From the IMG/VR virus record IMGVR_UViG_3300047443_000065, positions 1-34,240 of that record: a DNA stretch of 34,240 nt; one strand, given 5' to 3'. The translations under genes and the position numbers were made by a program. Shown in pieces: positions 30,364-34,240 of the stretch. The notes beneath the pieces were generated by a model, which saw nothing but the letters and a program-made list of their open reading frames with translations, did not search any database and was not told the DNA's origin. Position 1 is the stretch's first letter, and every line of letters starts with the position of its first letter. Source of the DNA: a virus.

Positions 30364-31374
30364 ATGGCGCTTGGATTTACGCCGGCAGTCGAGATAACGG
30401 GCGCGAATGCGGCGCTGATTAACGCTCGCCTGGTGGATTGGGAGCACGTCGACGCCTCGGGCGTGAAGTCGGACACGTTGAACCTGACGGTTCGAGTCGA
30501 CGACCTGGAAGGCTTGCCCAGCTTCGACGGGGTGATCGGGTTAAAGGTCGGCTACCTCGAGTCGGGGCTCGTCGATAAAGGCGAGTTCAATATCACCAGG
30601 TGCCGGCCTCAGTTGTTCCCGCCGCTGCTGAAAATCGTCGCCACTGCAGTTCCTTTCAAGGTGGCTGACGAGACGGCATTCAAAGAGCGAAAGTCGGCCA
30701 GCTACGGGCCGACCACACTTGGCGCGATCTTTCGGGAGCTGACCGCGCGCCACGGGTTTTCCCCTCGGATCTCGGCCGAGCTTGATGCAAAGGTGATCGA
30801 CCATATCGACCAGTCGAATGAAACCGACATGGGGTTTTTGACGCGGATCTCGCGCAAGTACGACGCCGTCACGAAGCCGGTTAACGAGCTCTACGTCATG
30901 GCTCTGAAAGGTCAGGTCAAATCGCTGTCGGGTAAGACGTTGCCGGTCGTGCCCTTGTCGGTAACGAAAGGGAATTCGCCGAACGACCGATCGTTTATCA
31001 ATGCCACGCTCGACGAAGAAAGCCGCGTCAAGTTCAAGGGCTGCAAAACGGTCTGGTGGGACGGCTCGACGGGCAAAGAGTGCGTGGTCGAGACGGGGGA
31101 AAAGCCGTTCAAGAAGGTGACGCAGCGTTACCAGAATGAGGCTGACGCGAAGGCTGCAGGCGAGGGATCGCTGCGCAAGCTCAAGCGCGAGGAAATGAAA
31201 CTGCAGATCGATTGCCCCGGTAATCCTGATCTTGCGGCCGAGGGCCTGATCGAGCTCGACGACACCTGGCCGTCATTCATGCGCGGTCAGTGGTCAATTG
31301 ACCAGGTGACGGCAAACGGCAGCCGGCAGCAGAGTTACCGCTGCTCGCTGACTGCGACAATCCCTGCGGAATAA
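30364..31374 (+). CDS. D: Tail protein gpD
   Basis: 336 residues, P2 gpD family of baseplate hub proteins (T4 gp27-like): NLTVRVDDLEGLPSF, VGYLESGLVDKGEF, and the family's WSIDQVTANG end. Forms the trimeric cap between tube and spike. Last gene of the late operon. RBS AAAGGGGTAGGG. Confidence 0.9.
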   Translation: MALGFTPAVEITGANAALINARLVDWEHVDASGVKSDTLNLTVRVDDLEGLPSFDGVIGLKVGYLESGLVDKGEFNITRCRPQLFPPLLKIVATAVPFKVADETAFKERKSASYGPTTLGAIFRELTARHGFSPRISAELDAKVIDHIDQSNETDMGFLTRISRKYDAVTKPVNELYVMALKGQVKSLSGKTLPVVPLSVTKGNSPNDRSFINATLDEESRVKFKGCKTVWWDGSTGKECVVETGEKPFKKVTQRYQNEADAKAAGEGSLRKLKREEMKLQIDCPGNPDLAAEGLIELDDTWPSFMRGQWSIDQVTANGSRQQSYRCSLTATIPAE

Positions 31375-31423: not shown

Positions 31424-31780
31424 TTACTGCTCGAGCAGGGCGCCGGGCATGGTTGGCGGCGACTGGTAGTCGACCATCACGGCCGGCAGGTTCTGCAGGT
31501 CCTGGACGTTGGCCAGCTTGCCGACGACCTCGATCGCGTTACCGTTGGCGGCGATCCATGTCGCGTCTCGGTCGAGCCAGACGCTGGCCGGCGCGCCGTT
31601 TTTGTACCGGCAGACGCCCCAGCTTTTGCCGTCCTGCTTGAGGATCTTGCAATTAACCGCCAGCCCAACCCGCTCGCTGACGCGCTCGAGCGCGTGGTCG
31701 TCCTTTTTGACCAGGTCGTAAGCCAGGATCGCTACCAGGGCGACGACGACGGCGCCAATGATGATGGGCTTTGCTTTCAT
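31424..31780 (-). CDS. Small membrane-anchored protein
   Basis: 118 residues, starting MKAKPIIIGAVVVALVAILA, a single N-terminal membrane anchor, then a mostly periplasmic domain with two Cys (VNCKIL, WGVCRYK) that could form a disulfide. Family unknown. It is separated from the next upstream gene by a terminator, so it likely has its own promoter. I chose the ATG at 31780; an upstream frame to 31915 would pass through the terminator. Confidence 0.68.
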   Translation of the reverse strand: MKAKPIIIGAVVVALVAILAYDLVKKDDHALERVSERVGLAVNCKILKQDGKSWGVCRYKNGAPASVWLDRDATWIAANGNAIEVVGKLANVQDLQNLPAVMVDYQSPPTMPGALLEQ

Positions 31781-31823: not shown

Positions 31824-31846
31824 AAGCCCGCCGAGTGGGCGGGCTT
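31824..31846 (-). terminator. Terminator of the accessory operon
   Basis: AAGCCCGCC (31824-31832) and GGCGGGCTT (31838-31846), loop GAGTG; TTTTT follows on the minus strand. Confidence 0.78.
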
Positions 31847-31866: not shown

Positions 31867-32163
31867 CTACCCGTAAACGACATCGGGGCGGGCGGCGTAT
31901 TCGCTGAGCGACCACTCGGCCGGGGTTATCTTGATCCAGATTTCGCGCTGAGAGGCGCTGAAATCATGCTCGCTGAGCTCGGAAATCTCCTCGAGTAGCA
32001 GTTTGCGAACGCCGTCAAAGTGTTTATGCGTCTCGCGGCCGTATACCCCTTTTACCTCGTAAACTGTGCGCGTTTCCTCTTTGTTGCGGCGCTCGATCTC
32101 GGCGTCGATGCGTGCTCGTTGCCGCTTGAGATCGTCGATTGTTTCGGTGGCGAGGTCTGTCAT
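31867..32163 (-). CDS. Small coiled-coil protein, unknown
   Basis: 98 residues: an N-terminal helix (IDDLKRQRARIDAEIERRNKE) like a short coiled coil, then a mixed domain ending PDVVYG. No family recognised. Start ATG at 32163 overlaps the preceding gene's stop (ATGA); an in-frame extension to 32229 is less likely. Last gene of the coupled accessory operon. Confidence 0.68.
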   Translation of the reverse strand: MTDLATETIDDLKRQRARIDAEIERRNKEETRTVYEVKGVYGRETHKHFDGVRKLLLEEISELSEHDFSASQREIWIKITPAEWSLSEYAARPDVVYG

Positions 32164-32393
32164 TGGTGGTTGTCCTTGCTGGTGTATTGGTGGCGCAATG
32201 TCCAGGCGGTGTACAGGATCGCAAGCCACGGCAGCGCGCTAAAGGCTGGCCACGCGGCAAGCCAGAAGATCAGCGGCGGCGGGCCGTCGTGGCGCATGAG
32301 CATTGCGGCAGCGAGCAGGAGCGGCCAGACGTAGCCGAGCGTTAGGCCGGGATGGCTGGCCAGTGAGCGGCGGAAAAGCTGCCAGTTGTTCAT
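32160..32393 (-). CDS. Small integral membrane protein
   Basis: 77 residues with two hydrophobic helices (GYVWPLLLAAAML and LIFWLAAWPAFSALPWLAILY) and short ends. The ATG at 32393 follows GGTGGTAACA, which is supplied by the end of the repeat gene. Unknown role; a superinfection-exclusion role is a guess from the type. Confidence 0.65.
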   Translation of the reverse strand: MNNWQLFRRSLASHPGLTLGYVWPLLLAAAMLMRHDGPPPLIFWLAAWPAFSALPWLAILYTAWTLRHQYTSKDNHQ

Positions 32394-32395
32394 TG

Positions 32396-32752
32396 TTACC
32401 ACCTCTTTTTGACGTCGCGATCGGGGCCGCCGAACTCTGCGTCGGTGCGGCCGTCGTTGTCGAGATCCCGATCGGGGCCGCCGAATGTTGCGTCGGTGCG
32501 GCCGTCGCCGTCGAGATCCCGATCGCCGCCTCGGAATTGCCCGTCGGTGCGCCCGTCGTTGTCGAGATCGCGGTCAGGGCCGCCGAACTTCGCGTCGGTG
32601 CGGCCGTCGTTGTCGAGATCCCGATCGGGGCCGCCGCATGTCGCGTCAGTTCGCCCGTCGTCGTCGACGTCGCAGTTTCGGGCGGCTGCAGGCTGGAAAG
32701 AGCCAGCGATCGCTAGAGCGAGCAGGAGCCCGCCGATTTTGAGGGTGGTCAT
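32396..32752 (-). CDS. Exported protein with five DxDxDG calcium-like repeats
   Basis: 118 residues. Residues 1-24 are a signal peptide ending PAAA. Residues 26-110 are five tandem 17-residue units, each with D-x-D-x-D-G-R-T-D and mostly followed by GGP; the fifth is followed by a partial DRD. The nine-residue acidic loop matches calcium-binding loops of EF-hand/dockerin/thrombospondin-type-3 kind. Two Cys (27, 39) lie in the first unit and could pair. Repeats are close to identical at 51 bp, indicating recent expansion. ATGA overlap with the upstream gene. Likely periplasmic or secreted. Function unknown; its place in a prophage-side operon suggests lysogenic conversion. Confidence 0.75.
   Translation of the reverse strand: MTTLKIGGLLLALAIAGSFQPAAARNCDVDDDGRTDATCGGPDRDLDNDGRTDAKFGGPDRDLDNDGRTDGQFRGGDRDLDGDGRTDATFGGPDRDLDNDGRTDAEFGGPDRDVKKRW
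32423..32677. repeat. Five 51-bp tandem repeats
   Basis: Encodes residues 26-110 of the exported repeat protein. Units differ by few bases (e.g. Thr/Lys/Gln/Glu codons before Phe). Confidence 0.8.
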
Positions 32753-32901
32753 ACTTGCTTGTCCTGGTTGGTGGCCTTGTCGTCCGCGCGCTGGGTGTAA
32801 ATGCGGTAGATGAACACGCCTACGACGTGCAGCGCGATGGCGATGGCCACGACGCCGTTAAAGAGAATTTGAAGCCCGGTAGGGTCGTCGCTGCGCTTCA
32901 T
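32749..32901 (-). CDS. 50-residue membrane protein
   Basis: Single hydrophobic helix (ILFNGVVAIAIALHVVGVFI) followed by a basic/acidic tail. The ATG at 32901 has GGAGG seven bases upstream. Its start overlaps the previous stop by TAATG, and its stop overlaps the repeat protein start by ATGA. Role unknown. Confidence 0.65.
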   Translation of the reverse strand: MKRSDDPTGLQILFNGVVAIAIALHVVGVFIYRIYTQRADDKATNQDKQV

Positions 32902-33053
32902 TAGGCGGCCTCCCCGATCAGTTTCAGGACGGCGTGCCATGCAATCAGGCAGCATTCTTGCTCGAGGTAGGCGCGCACTTTGGCGCGGTTGGCTGGATCT
33001 GCAGCGTCGCGCAGTGAAAGGCTGCGGACCGTGTTATATTCGCGTCTAGACAT
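32901..33053 (-). CDS. 50-residue protein, first of accessory operon
   Basis: Begins MSRREYNTVRSLSLRD, contains a Cys pair (EQECCLIAW) and ends GEAA. The start at 33053 has GAGGGG six bases upstream, and TAATG couples it to the membrane gene. Both support a real gene despite small size. Family unknown. Confidence 0.6.
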   Translation of the reverse strand: MSRREYNTVRSLSLRDAADPANRAKVRAYLEQECCLIAWHAVLKLIGEAA

Positions 33054-33068
33054 GGTTTACCCCTCAGG

Positions 33069-33098
33069 TTTATCTGTCTCGCCTGGTGGCGGGTGCAA
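33069..33098 (-). promoter_or_regulatory. Weak promoter candidate for the accessory operon
   Basis: On the minus strand TTGCAC, 18-bp spacer, GATAAA. Otherwise transcription would come through parA-parG. Confidence 0.28.
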
Positions 33099-33110
33099 CC
33101 GCTACCAGGC
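33081..33110. repeat. Hairpin after the ParB-like gene
   Basis: GCCTGGT (33081-33087) and ACCAGGC (33104-33110) plus an inner CGGG-like stem. No T-tract on the minus strand, so readthrough into the accessory operon is possible. Confidence 0.4.
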
Positions 33111-33116
33111 TTCTTT

Positions 33117-33428
33117 TCACTTCAATGATTCCAGGCGCCGTTTCAGCTCGGCCTGATCTTCGACGTTGTAATGCCCCTTCCCTTGCTCGTACTTTTTGAA
33201 CAGATCGTCGAGCGCTTCAATGATCAGATATTTAACCGGGACGTTGTCGGCCGACATGCTTTTAATGTCGTTGGTGCCTCTGTGGTACTTGACCGGCACG
33301 ATCGCCTTGAGCTGTTTCTCTTCGGTCGAATCGCTTACTACTGCTCGGCGCGCTTTCTCGACGTGTGGCTCGATTTGGGCGGCGGCGGCGCGGCTAGGGC
33401 GCTCGGTGCTGAGTTTTGTACCGGTCAT
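33117..33428 (-). CDS. ParG/ParB-like ribbon-helix-helix protein
   Basis: 103 residues: a disordered, Arg/Glu/Ser-rich N-terminus (~1-38), then LKAIVPVKYHR (DNA-contacting strand) and two helices to LFKKYE, a ribbon-helix-helix fold. Partners of type Ib ParA proteins (ParG, Omega) have this design and bind both centromere and the par promoter. The start overlaps parA by ATGA. The likely bound site is the palindrome in the par promoter. Confidence 0.72.
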   Translation of the reverse strand: MTGTKLSTERPSRAAAAQIEPHVEKARRAVVSDSTEEKQLKAIVPVKYHRGTNDIKSMSADNVPVKYLIIEALDDLFKKYEQGKGHYNVEDQAELKRRLESLK

Positions 33429-34072
33429 TTATCAAACTCCAGGAGCTCGGCCGTCAGGGCCTCGATCTCGAGACGTGCATCGTCGCCAGGCGCCAGGTCC
33501 ATTACGCTGTTCCCTTGTGCAATGCCTTTCCCGTAGGCGACGCGCTGGTGCGTTTGAGTTTCGGTTAGCGGCAGCTCGTAGTTGAGCAGCGCCTGCTGTG
33601 CGTCGCGCTCGAGAATGGTCCCGGCGATGGCTCGAGCGATCATCAGTACGGCCTTCGGTGAGCCGCCTGTGACCTCCTGGCGGTCCTTCACTAGCGTGAC
33701 CATGTCGGCGGTCGCCCATATGTCGTATTGGCTCGGCTGCACAGGAATGATGACCAGGTGCGAAGCCTTGACCGCGTCCGACGTCAGGGTGCTGATCTGC
33801 GGTATCCCGTCAATGATCACGTAGTCGTAACCGCTCGAGATTCGCGGCAGGTCGCGCTTTAGCGTTTCCCGCATGATCACGCAGGGGATCAGTGTCGCGT
33901 CGTCAGCACGGGACGTTGCCCAGTCAGTCGCCGAGCCTTGGCGGCCGTCGAGGTCGACCAGGAGCACGCTTTTGCCGTGCTTATCGGCCAGGCAGCAGGC
34001 GACGTTCGTCGCGGTCGTCGTCTTTGTTGTGCCGCCCTTTTGGTTCTGTATGGTCCAGATTCTTGCAGCCAT
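33425..34072 (-). CDS. parA: ParA-type partition ATPase
   Basis: 215 residues, of the short type Ib class (no N-terminal HTH). Deviant Walker A: QKGGTTKTTT with Lys12 and Lys17; Walker A' LLVDLDGRQGS (Asp40); Walker B YVIIDG. Such ATPases move plasmids apart on the nucleoid. ATG at 34072 has GAGG upstream; the frame extends to 34147 but that would cover the promoter. ATGA overlap with the RHH gene makes this a typical par operon. Confidence 0.9.
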   Translation of the reverse strand: MAARIWTIQNQKGGTTKTTTATNVACCLADKHGKSVLLVDLDGRQGSATDWATSRADDATLIPCVIMRETLKRDLPRISSGYDYVIIDGIPQISTLTSDAVKASHLVIIPVQPSQYDIWATADMVTLVKDRQEVTGGSPKAVLMIARAIAGTILERDAQQALLNYELPLTETQTHQRVAYGKGIAQGNSVMDLAPGDDARLEIEALTAELLEFDK

Positions 34073-34102
34073 TTTGAAGGCCTCGCGGTTAGGTGAGGTC
34101 TC

Positions 34103-34131
34103 AATATACGTACAAATGTACCTTTGTACAA
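34103..34131 (-). promoter_or_regulatory. parA promoter
   Basis: On the minus strand TTGTAC (34126-34131), 17-bp spacer, TATATT (34103-34108). Strong -10 and spacing; the spacer is filled by the operator-like palindrome. Confidence 0.65.
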
Positions 34132-34156
34132 TAGGCCATAAGGGCAAAGGTACAAA
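34110..34156. promoter_or_regulatory. Motif cluster D / par operator, possible centromere
   Basis: GTACAAATGTACCTTTGTAC (34110-34129) has 7-bp inverted arms with a 6-nt centre, and CAAAGGTACAAA (34145-34156) lies just upstream. Together they cover the -35 box, suggesting autoregulation by the RHH protein and perhaps the parS/centromere. Confidence 0.55.
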
Positions 34157-34240
34157 ACAAACAGGTGCGTAGCGCCATCCTTTACAGAGACTCTGTCTCT
34201 GCGCTTTTGCCCGTCCTTTCTCCCTGTGCCTGCAGACCTT
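34157..34240. other. Gene-free right end with inverted repeat
   Basis: CAGAGAC and GTCTCTG (34185-34201, 3-nt loop) lie beside GTCCTTTCTCCC (34213-34224), a 12-mer also present at 11181-11192. No gene. Confidence 0.45.

Follow-up and report, generated by a model that had tools for sequence, protein, structure and literature searches.

A conserved exported-looking protein of five calcium-loop-like repeats in the partition operon of a linear Pseudomonas phage-plasmid

We analyzed a group of genes at the right end of the window, by which we mean the whole 34,240-nucleotide stretch of viral record IMGVR_UViG_3300047443_000065. Reading inward from the telomere, the order is parA, a gene for a 103-residue protein, p50, p49, REP, variable genes, a terminator, p118 and, on the other strand, the tail gene D (Table 1). 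The 103-residue product is labelled ParB by its position only. REP, the subject of this study, begins with MTTLKIGGLLLALAIAGSFQPAAAR, continues with five 17-residue units and closes with a short basic tail.

Table 1. Features at the partition-gene end of the window, listed from the right end inward (window coordinates)
Feature	Coordinates	Strand	Basis or remark
Promoter-like site upstream of parA, in GTAC-rich repeats	34103..34130	-	Consensus match only; 1 found vs 0.8 expected
ParA partition ATPase	33425..34072	-	AAA_31 E 4.1e-24; phrog_164 ParA-like
103-aa product of the gene following parA, probably the centromere-binding partner	33117..33428	-	phrog_15913, unknown function, E 1.5e-22; conserved place
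p50, 50-aa conserved protein, no membrane span	32901..33053	-	phrog_27476, unknown function, E 3.3e-4
p49, 50-aa single-span membrane protein, coupled upstream of REP	32749..32901	-	19-residue hydropathy 2.4
REP, 118-aa exported-looking repeat protein	32396..32752	-	ORF from ATG, exactly where first noted
Predicted Sec signal peptide of REP, residues 1-24, AAA end	32681..32752	-	Hydropathy and AxA-like site read from the sequence
REP repeat unit 1; Cys27 and Cys39 probably form a disulfide	32627..32677	-	Cys pair in 16/16
REP repeat unit 2, DRDLDNDGRTDAKFGGP	32576..32626	-	
REP repeat unit 3, DRDLDNDGRTDGQFRGG	32525..32575	-	
REP repeat unit 4, DRDLDGDGRTDATFGGP	32474..32524	-	
REP repeat unit 5, DRDLDNDGRTDAEFGGP	32423..32473	-	
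80-aa protein, borderline hydrophobic, overlaps REP end; variable slot	32160..32402	-	Window and one relative contig (L005/L016) only, among loci compared
98-aa protein, last gene before terminator; variable slot	31867..32163	-	Window only, among loci compared; no span by eye
Intrinsic terminator closing the par-REP operon	31824..31846	-	Hairpin and T run; hairpin in 14/14 loci
p118, 118-aa conserved protein, N-terminal membrane span, Cys pair	31424..31780	-	Downstream of terminator
Phage tail protein D, accessory-slot boundary	30364..31374	+	Matches VP882 gene D; relatives annotated 'late control D'

The p49 stop codon overlaps the REP start codon (ATGA) in the window and in most relatives, and the next reading frame overlaps the end of REP, which bears out the coupled operon beside the partition genes that the earlier note had described. 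Its wording as an operon of membrane proteins is right for p49, with its clear span, and borderline for the product of 32160-32402, but not for those of 32901-33053 and 31867-32163, which have no span.

Three further features were observed around the operon. GTAC-rich short repeats at 34100-34165 (TACAAATGTACCTTTGTAC and GGTACAAA) overlap the promoter-like site upstream of parA and are plausible as an operator or centromere for the 103-residue partition protein. A strong GC-rich hairpin lies between the gene for that protein and p50 (33081-33110) and is possibly an attenuator or a transcript stabiliser within the operon. The Cys pair of p118 (NC...GVC) is conserved, and p118 is kept even in relatives that carry no REP.

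The element to which these genes belong can be recognized from its ends and its relatives. Positions 2-52 of the window encode the last residues of a protelomerase (17 matching residues, 64.7% identity, E = 0.018), so the left end of the record is a truncation within this gene. At the other end, the expected telomere side, it stops 168 bases past the parA start (34072-34240), and the starts of eight relative contigs lie 318-497 bases ahead of parA. Annotated REP-bearing relatives include pPHPALO418, a 38,390-bp P. aeruginosa plasmid whose protelomerase contains a ResT/TelK catalytic domain (E = 3.2e-30), and a 79,236-bp P. monteilii record. A 75,476-bp P. corrugata record (L003 and L059) encodes a ParA protein identical to that of the window and a D protein 99.4% identical; its annotation includes telomere resolvases and CyRepA1 replication genes, two of each, and it contains an inverted copy of its opening 21,668 bases with 0 mismatches. 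One viral contig (L018, 7500-10291) holds a perfect palindrome of 2 x 1396 nt centred near parA. The 75-79 kb Pseudomonas plasmid records described as circular look like head-to-head dimers of ~38-kb linear elements, as shown for P. corrugata and as size suggests for the others. The protelomerase and the inverted dimers among its relatives thus identify the window as the greater part of a linear, hairpin-ended VP882-type phage-plasmid. VP882-related telomere phages of Pseudomonas have been published before, as the available part of PMC12042878 documents.

The repeat structure of REP is evident at both the DNA and the protein level. Tandem Repeats Finder reported a 51-bp array at 32418-32667 with 4.9 copies and 81% matches, so that the copies are similar rather than near-identical, as they had first been called. 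The encoded units follow the consensus D-R-D-x-D-N-D-G-R-T-D-A-x-F-G-G-P, and mature REP contains five DxDxDGxxD motifs whose four spacings are all 17 residues. Among 20,000 composition-preserving shuffles, the motif count had a mean of 0.099 and a maximum of 3, and five motifs were reached in 0/20,000; the reading frame and its five units are thus real and lie as originally described. The GGP spacers were confirmed for four of the five units, while unit 3 ends in RGG. Mature REP (93 residues) has a pI of 4.14 and contains 27 Asp and a single Glu. Within residues 1-24 the best 19-residue Kyte-Doolittle mean is 1.62, with AAA after it, and a hydrophobic N-terminus with a signal-like cleavage site is kept in every aligned orthologue. 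The Cys27/Cys39 pair of unit 1 is invariant across the 16 phage-plasmid orthologues.

REP orthologues were found in 3 plasmid records, 11 viral contigs and 2 Pseudomonas genomes. The set of 16 genes compared comprised the window, L002, L003, L005-L014, L019, L022 and L023; L004 and L015, whose proteins equal those of L002 and L014, were left out of the dN/dS set. All 16 frames are intact, which answers the question of disruption raised with the earlier note, and each contains exactly five units; the divergent phage-plasmid L052 has six. Over the 120 pairs of the 16 genes, the repeat region gave a median dN/dS of 0.11 and a maximum of 0.21 (120/120 below 0.22), and the variable columns numbered 22, 21 and 76 of 86 at codon positions 1, 2 and 3, respectively. 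REP is therefore a real, strongly conserved coding gene under purifying selection, and its first description as an exported repeat protein with calcium-loop-like motifs agrees with the predicted signal peptide and the five units.

These data bear on whether the 51-bp repeats might instead act as DNA, as a centromere for partition or an array of iterons in which several frames are open by coincidence. Tandem repeats located 0.7-1.7 kb from parA, with long antisense reading frames open across them, are what such an array would look like. Yet the variation is concentrated at third codon positions, and the median dS over 14 loci is not depressed (0.72 for the whole REP gene, 0.91 for the 103-residue protein gene and 0.47 for p118); a dS lying between those of its neighbours indicates that the DNA itself is not specially constrained. 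The DNA copies within one REP gene have drifted to 0.70-0.85 identity while the protein stays. We therefore rejected the iteron or centromere on the codon-position pattern and dN/dS, and regard it as extremely improbable for a gene that is protein-coding and under purifying selection. Across phages, unit 1 shows 0.86 identity to its same-numbered counterparts and 0.62-0.68 to other units, and the remaining units are slightly closer to their same-numbered counterparts than to each other, indicating a stable array that is not freshly expanding.

REP occupies an accessory slot whose content varies. Among viral contigs found with the 103-residue protein, 8 of 10 carry REP (absent from L018 and L020), as do three of the five plasmid records found with p118; the other two (L069 and L070) have a methylase and an exonuclease instead. 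A cytosine methylase was placed in the slot in L010, where it lies between p49 and REP, and in L018, L020, L052, L069 and L070; the L010 protein matched methylase models, and the assignments in L018, L020 and L052 are readings of ORFs resembling it. The 3'-5' exonuclease was found in L069 and L070. p49 is no dedicated partner of REP, since it occurs without REP in L020 and probably also in L069 and L070. Beside tail gene D and adjoining the slot, L020 (3121-3700) and L069 (4250-4830) contain a HigA-type antitoxin and a RelE/ParE-type toxin, a pair that is annotated in L069 and read from ORFs in L020.

Being phage-borne and adjoining tail gene D, REP might be expected to be a virion or lysis component, for example a protein made late in the lytic cycle. 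Its arrangement argues against this: REP lies on the strand opposite to the tail genes with a conserved terminator between, is co-directional and coupled with the parA operon, and is absent from L069 and L070, which keep their tail genes. The lysis genes lie elsewhere, at about 9.3-10.4 kb, and comprise a lysozyme, annotated at the corresponding place in relatives, and an Rz-like gene assigned by reading. We consider a virion or lysis role very improbable, in line with the early view that REP is not a virion structural gene.

We then examined the repeat unit as a potential calcium site. All 75 units of the 15 phage-plasmid proteins have Asp at positions 3, 5, 7 and 11, which places Asp at loop positions 1, 3, 5 and 9 as in the Dx[DN]xDG class; position 1 is Asp in 70 of these units and position 16 is Gly in all 75. 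The same Asp pattern occurs in 32/32 units of six other loci, where the definition of a unit already required Asp at 3, 5 and 11. Position 8 (loop position 6) is Gly in 63 of the phage-plasmid units, Asp in 4, Asn in 3, Lys in 2 and another residue in 3; overall, the residues seen there are G, N, D, K, S, H, Q, A and R. Position 14 (loop position 12), usually F, A or S overall, is one of F, C, H and Y in all 75 and is non-acidic in the other loci. The unit thus combines the Dx[DN]xDG ligands with a repeat length of exactly 17 residues and a turn of two Gly, a pattern suggestive of calcium binding. According to the portion of PMC3123361 at hand, such loops bind Ca2+ in a nearly identical manner across many folds, and inserting one into another protein is enough for a site. 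Counted against the calcium reading are the missing classical acidic ligand at loop position 12, low to middling AlphaFold confidence and a null Foldseek result.

Profile searches did not place REP in a described family. The EF-hand, dockerin and TSP3 families, to which the earlier note had pointed, gave either no match or matches below the Pfam cut-offs. No EF-hand family appeared at E of 10 or below for the window REP, or at E of 1 for eight relatives, and we rejected the EF-hand assignment on this ground together with the lack of an acidic loop position 12 and a mature model, of low confidence, containing only 3-residue turns. TSP_3 (PF02412) came nearest, with repeated matches that no other Pfam family gave (E = 0.17, 0.028 and 0.0043, all below cut-off): 12 bits for the window REP (E = 0.17) and 17.1 bits for the best relative (E = 0.0043) against a gathering cut-off of 25, and Dockerin_1 (PF00404) gave 10.3 bits (E = 0.87) against 22.9; both were set aside. 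NCBIfam at E of 1 had no match for the window REP or for the relatives L028, L029, L027 and L052, and for L055 and L053 it returned only sub-cut-off lipoprotein-like matches to signal or coiled-coil parts. The best PHROGs match was to a family of unknown function (E = 0.034), and no PADLOC model matched the window REP at E of 0.001.

Searches against sequences and structures gave a similar picture. A tblastn search of 50,697 phage records including VP882 (E limit 0.01) did not find REP, with BLAST masking low-complexity sequence; the L027, L053 and L055 proteins had no match in the phage records, nor the L028 protein in the viral contigs. Among the sequences of solved structures (PDB), the window REP had no match at E of 1, and a chemoreceptor chain (E = 0.53 by profile, 0.49 with an L055 fragment) was judged a chance hit. 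AlphaFold, whose first alignment held 14 of the 16 rows of alignment A1, gave an uninformative model of full REP with a pLDDT of 50.2; for mature REP the pLDDT was 66.4 and the pTM 0.45, with five models spanning 35 to 66. The mature model is regular but of middling confidence, with a bridge-turn pattern that is alike in most units. Foldseek found no fold match for the REP model in PDB or BFVD, and neither did a second look with VIA; because the model is not confident, these structural negatives carry little weight.

Relatives of REP also occur outside the main phage-plasmid group. With low-complexity filtering on and the number of scored candidates capped, matches were found in at least 6 of 398 genomes of the genus Pseudomonas: the phage-plasmid itself in G002, intact chromosomal copies in G196, G321 and G397, a copy split over two frames in G358 and one with stops in G104. 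At class level at least 2 of 369 genomes matched (G002 and a weak match in a long ORF), and at phylum level at least 2 of 299 (G002 and one weak match). The 395 genomes of the class containing the L024 genome gave no match in a search that had no positive control and is uninformative on Cytobacillus. The divergent phage-plasmid L052 carries its six-unit protein downstream of a cytosine methylase assigned by reading. In G397 (L061, round L028, with the pair at L028:65-1806) the REP relative follows an RmuC gene (PADLOC RTasRmuC model, E = 2.5e-107), with which it overlaps and is translationally coupled, and genes for a type I methylase, its specificity subunit and ZorA1 lie within 8 kb. In G321 (L062, round L029) the REP relative is followed, all within 10 kb, by genes for a type IV restriction enzyme, HmaA and PtuA1. 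Both loci have a WYL-domain gene on the upstream side, by model match in L061 and by eye in L062. The G196 relative (L060, round L027) is flanked on one side by hrpK, HrpJ-like and FHIPEP genes of a type III secretion cluster and on the other by a gene read as tgt; this is not a defence island.

Beyond Pseudomonas, six units form the end of a lipoprotein on a large Cytobacillus plasmid (L055), and on another Cytobacillus plasmid (L054) the units are not in frame with the start of the lipoprotein; two further Cytobacillus matches (H14 and H15) were found. A Firmicute-like viral contig (L053) encodes a lipoprotein that combines a predicted coiled coil with 17-residue REP-type units, on an element with FtsK-like and replication-relaxation-like genes and, by reading, an amidase and a holin-like gene. 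The lipoprotein signals of L055 and L053 are LTGC and LSGC.

Several other candidates were recorded separately. A Salmonella plasmid match (H18, E = 4e-4, 37.8% identity) was set aside as chance-like. The degenerate G104 copy lies close to the start of an RmuC-like gene and to a WYL-like one, as judged by eye. In L024 (365-4570), from a metagenome-assembled genome labelled Bacilli, a 1401-residue protein contains dozens of 12-residue DxNxDG-type repeats, some with Cys; this is a different repeat, and L024 was rejected as a REP relative.

The composition of REP raises a further alternative, namely that it is a cytoplasmic acidic protein that mimics DNA and counteracts restriction. A pI of 4.14 and 27 Asp among 93 residues would suit such a mimic, as would a slot shared with cytosine methylases. 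This reading conflicts with the conserved hydrophobic N-terminus and cleavage site, the lipoprotein signals of the Cytobacillus and Firmicute-like relatives and the invariant Cys pair, and a content of 1 Glu against 27 Asp is expected for calcium loops, not for a charge mimic. We regard a DNA mimic as very unlikely.

Taking the sequence evidence together, our tentative interpretation, held at somewhat less than an even chance as a whole, is that REP is an exported, Ca2+-binding envelope protein made by the lysogen. Its parts differ in strength. REP would very probably be exported through Sec, losing its signal peptide to leave an acidic protein of ~93 residues with unit 1 locked by a Cys27-Cys39 disulfide; the lipoprotein signals in L055 and L053 also fit export. 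Each 17-residue unit would probably hold one Ca2+, or up to two with the extra Asp at position 1, through Asp 3, 5, 7 and 11 and a left-handed Gly, Asn or Asp at position 8, and the five stacked units would form a rod that folds only with Ca2+, as outside the cytoplasm. Rather likely, REP is made throughout lysogeny, because the partition genes must be, and its place may be close to the inner membrane, next to the coupled p49. A point against such an envelope protein is that the par operon could be self-repressed by the partition proteins, leaving REP scarce.

What the exported protein would do is a more doubtful matter. REP might alter the envelope of its host and thereby hinder adsorption or injection by competing phages, that is, cause superinfection exclusion; we regard this step as possible but rather unlikely. 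It is suggested by the cytosine methylase and exonuclease that fill the slot elsewhere and by the location of 2 of the 3 intact chromosomal relatives in defence islands, whereas the position of L060 at type III secretion genes, and the fact that such islands collect many unrelated genes, count against it. More broadly, the 17-residue repeats might represent an undescribed class of exported or envelope-anchored rods serving as a mobile anti-phage surface factor, used for superinfection exclusion on telomere phage-plasmids, placed beside Zorya, Hma and Septu genes in chromosomal Pseudomonas defence islands, and carried as lipoproteins on Firmicute plasmids and phage or plasmid elements. This generalization is speculative, and we think it improbable.

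The main competing explanation is a moron, without any role in exclusion, that buffers calcium or stabilizes the envelope: the rod would bind periplasmic or lipopolysaccharide Ca2+ and aid the host under low calcium, under stress or in biofilms. The anatomy of REP fits envelope stabilization equally well, and relatives on large Cytobacillus plasmids and beside hrpK occur where exclusion is not an obvious need. Buffering is harder to reconcile with the data, since a small protein offers five sites and millimolar Ca2+ would demand very high expression, and the unit number is fixed in 16/16 orthologues, suggesting a defined structure rather than bulk chelation. Overall we consider such a moron a possibility that is not the likely one. 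If REP is instead the lysogen-made, Ca2+-binding envelope protein that we tentatively favour, lysogens of a widespread linear phage-plasmid group wear a calcium-stabilized envelope protein that no catalogue names, and the gene offers a direct and inexpensive test of whether phage-plasmids alter the host surface through a lysogeny-linked, partition-tied gene. The repeat, a small and strictly regular 17-residue module present in both Pseudomonas and Cytobacillus, also lends itself to structure determination, which may reveal a new calcium-dependent repeat fold.

The REP gene and its repeat class appear to be unnamed, while the type of element and the loop chemistry are already known. A literature text search for the REP unit strings found no match, a weak negative given that such strings are seldom printed and subscription papers fall mostly outside the search, and a search on exclusion and calcium binding found no paper. 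The 17-residue repeat seen in the accessible part of PMC12452194 is a Cys-containing EGKCG repeat unrelated to REP, and that of PMC1876623 offers only the Excalibur motif DxDxDGxxCE.

REP can finally be set beside several known systems. Superinfection-exclusion proteins of the Cor and Llp type are small, signal-peptide-bearing products of accessory genes expressed in the lysogen, as REP would be; neither Cor, Llp nor any of their kin is known to be a calcium-loop repeat protein. Thrombospondin type 3 repeats (PF02412) resemble REP as tandem, short, Asp-rich DxDxDGxxD loops that are extracellular and in part contain cysteines, whereas REP has a strict 17-residue unit, a GG(P/S) turn and only one Cys pair per protein. 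TSP3 loops are shorter and alternate. The Dx[DN]xDG loops outside EF-hands share the ligand pattern of REP, occur in many folds and need Ca2+ for structure, but a five-unit array of 17 residues is not among the contexts in the part of PMC3123361 available, and REP has no PDB relative by sequence or Foldseek. EfhP of P. aeruginosa is likewise a small Pseudomonas calcium-binding protein with DxDxDG motifs and, as far as the accessible text of PMC9132961 goes, contains two canonical EF-hands, in contrast to the five REP loops, which are without EF-hand helices and Pfam EF-hand matches. The VP882 and phiHAP-1 telomere phage-plasmids, in whose description REP is not mentioned within the available part of PMC12042878, correspond to the REP-bearing element in being linear plasmid prophages with a protelomerase, a contractile tail and partition genes.
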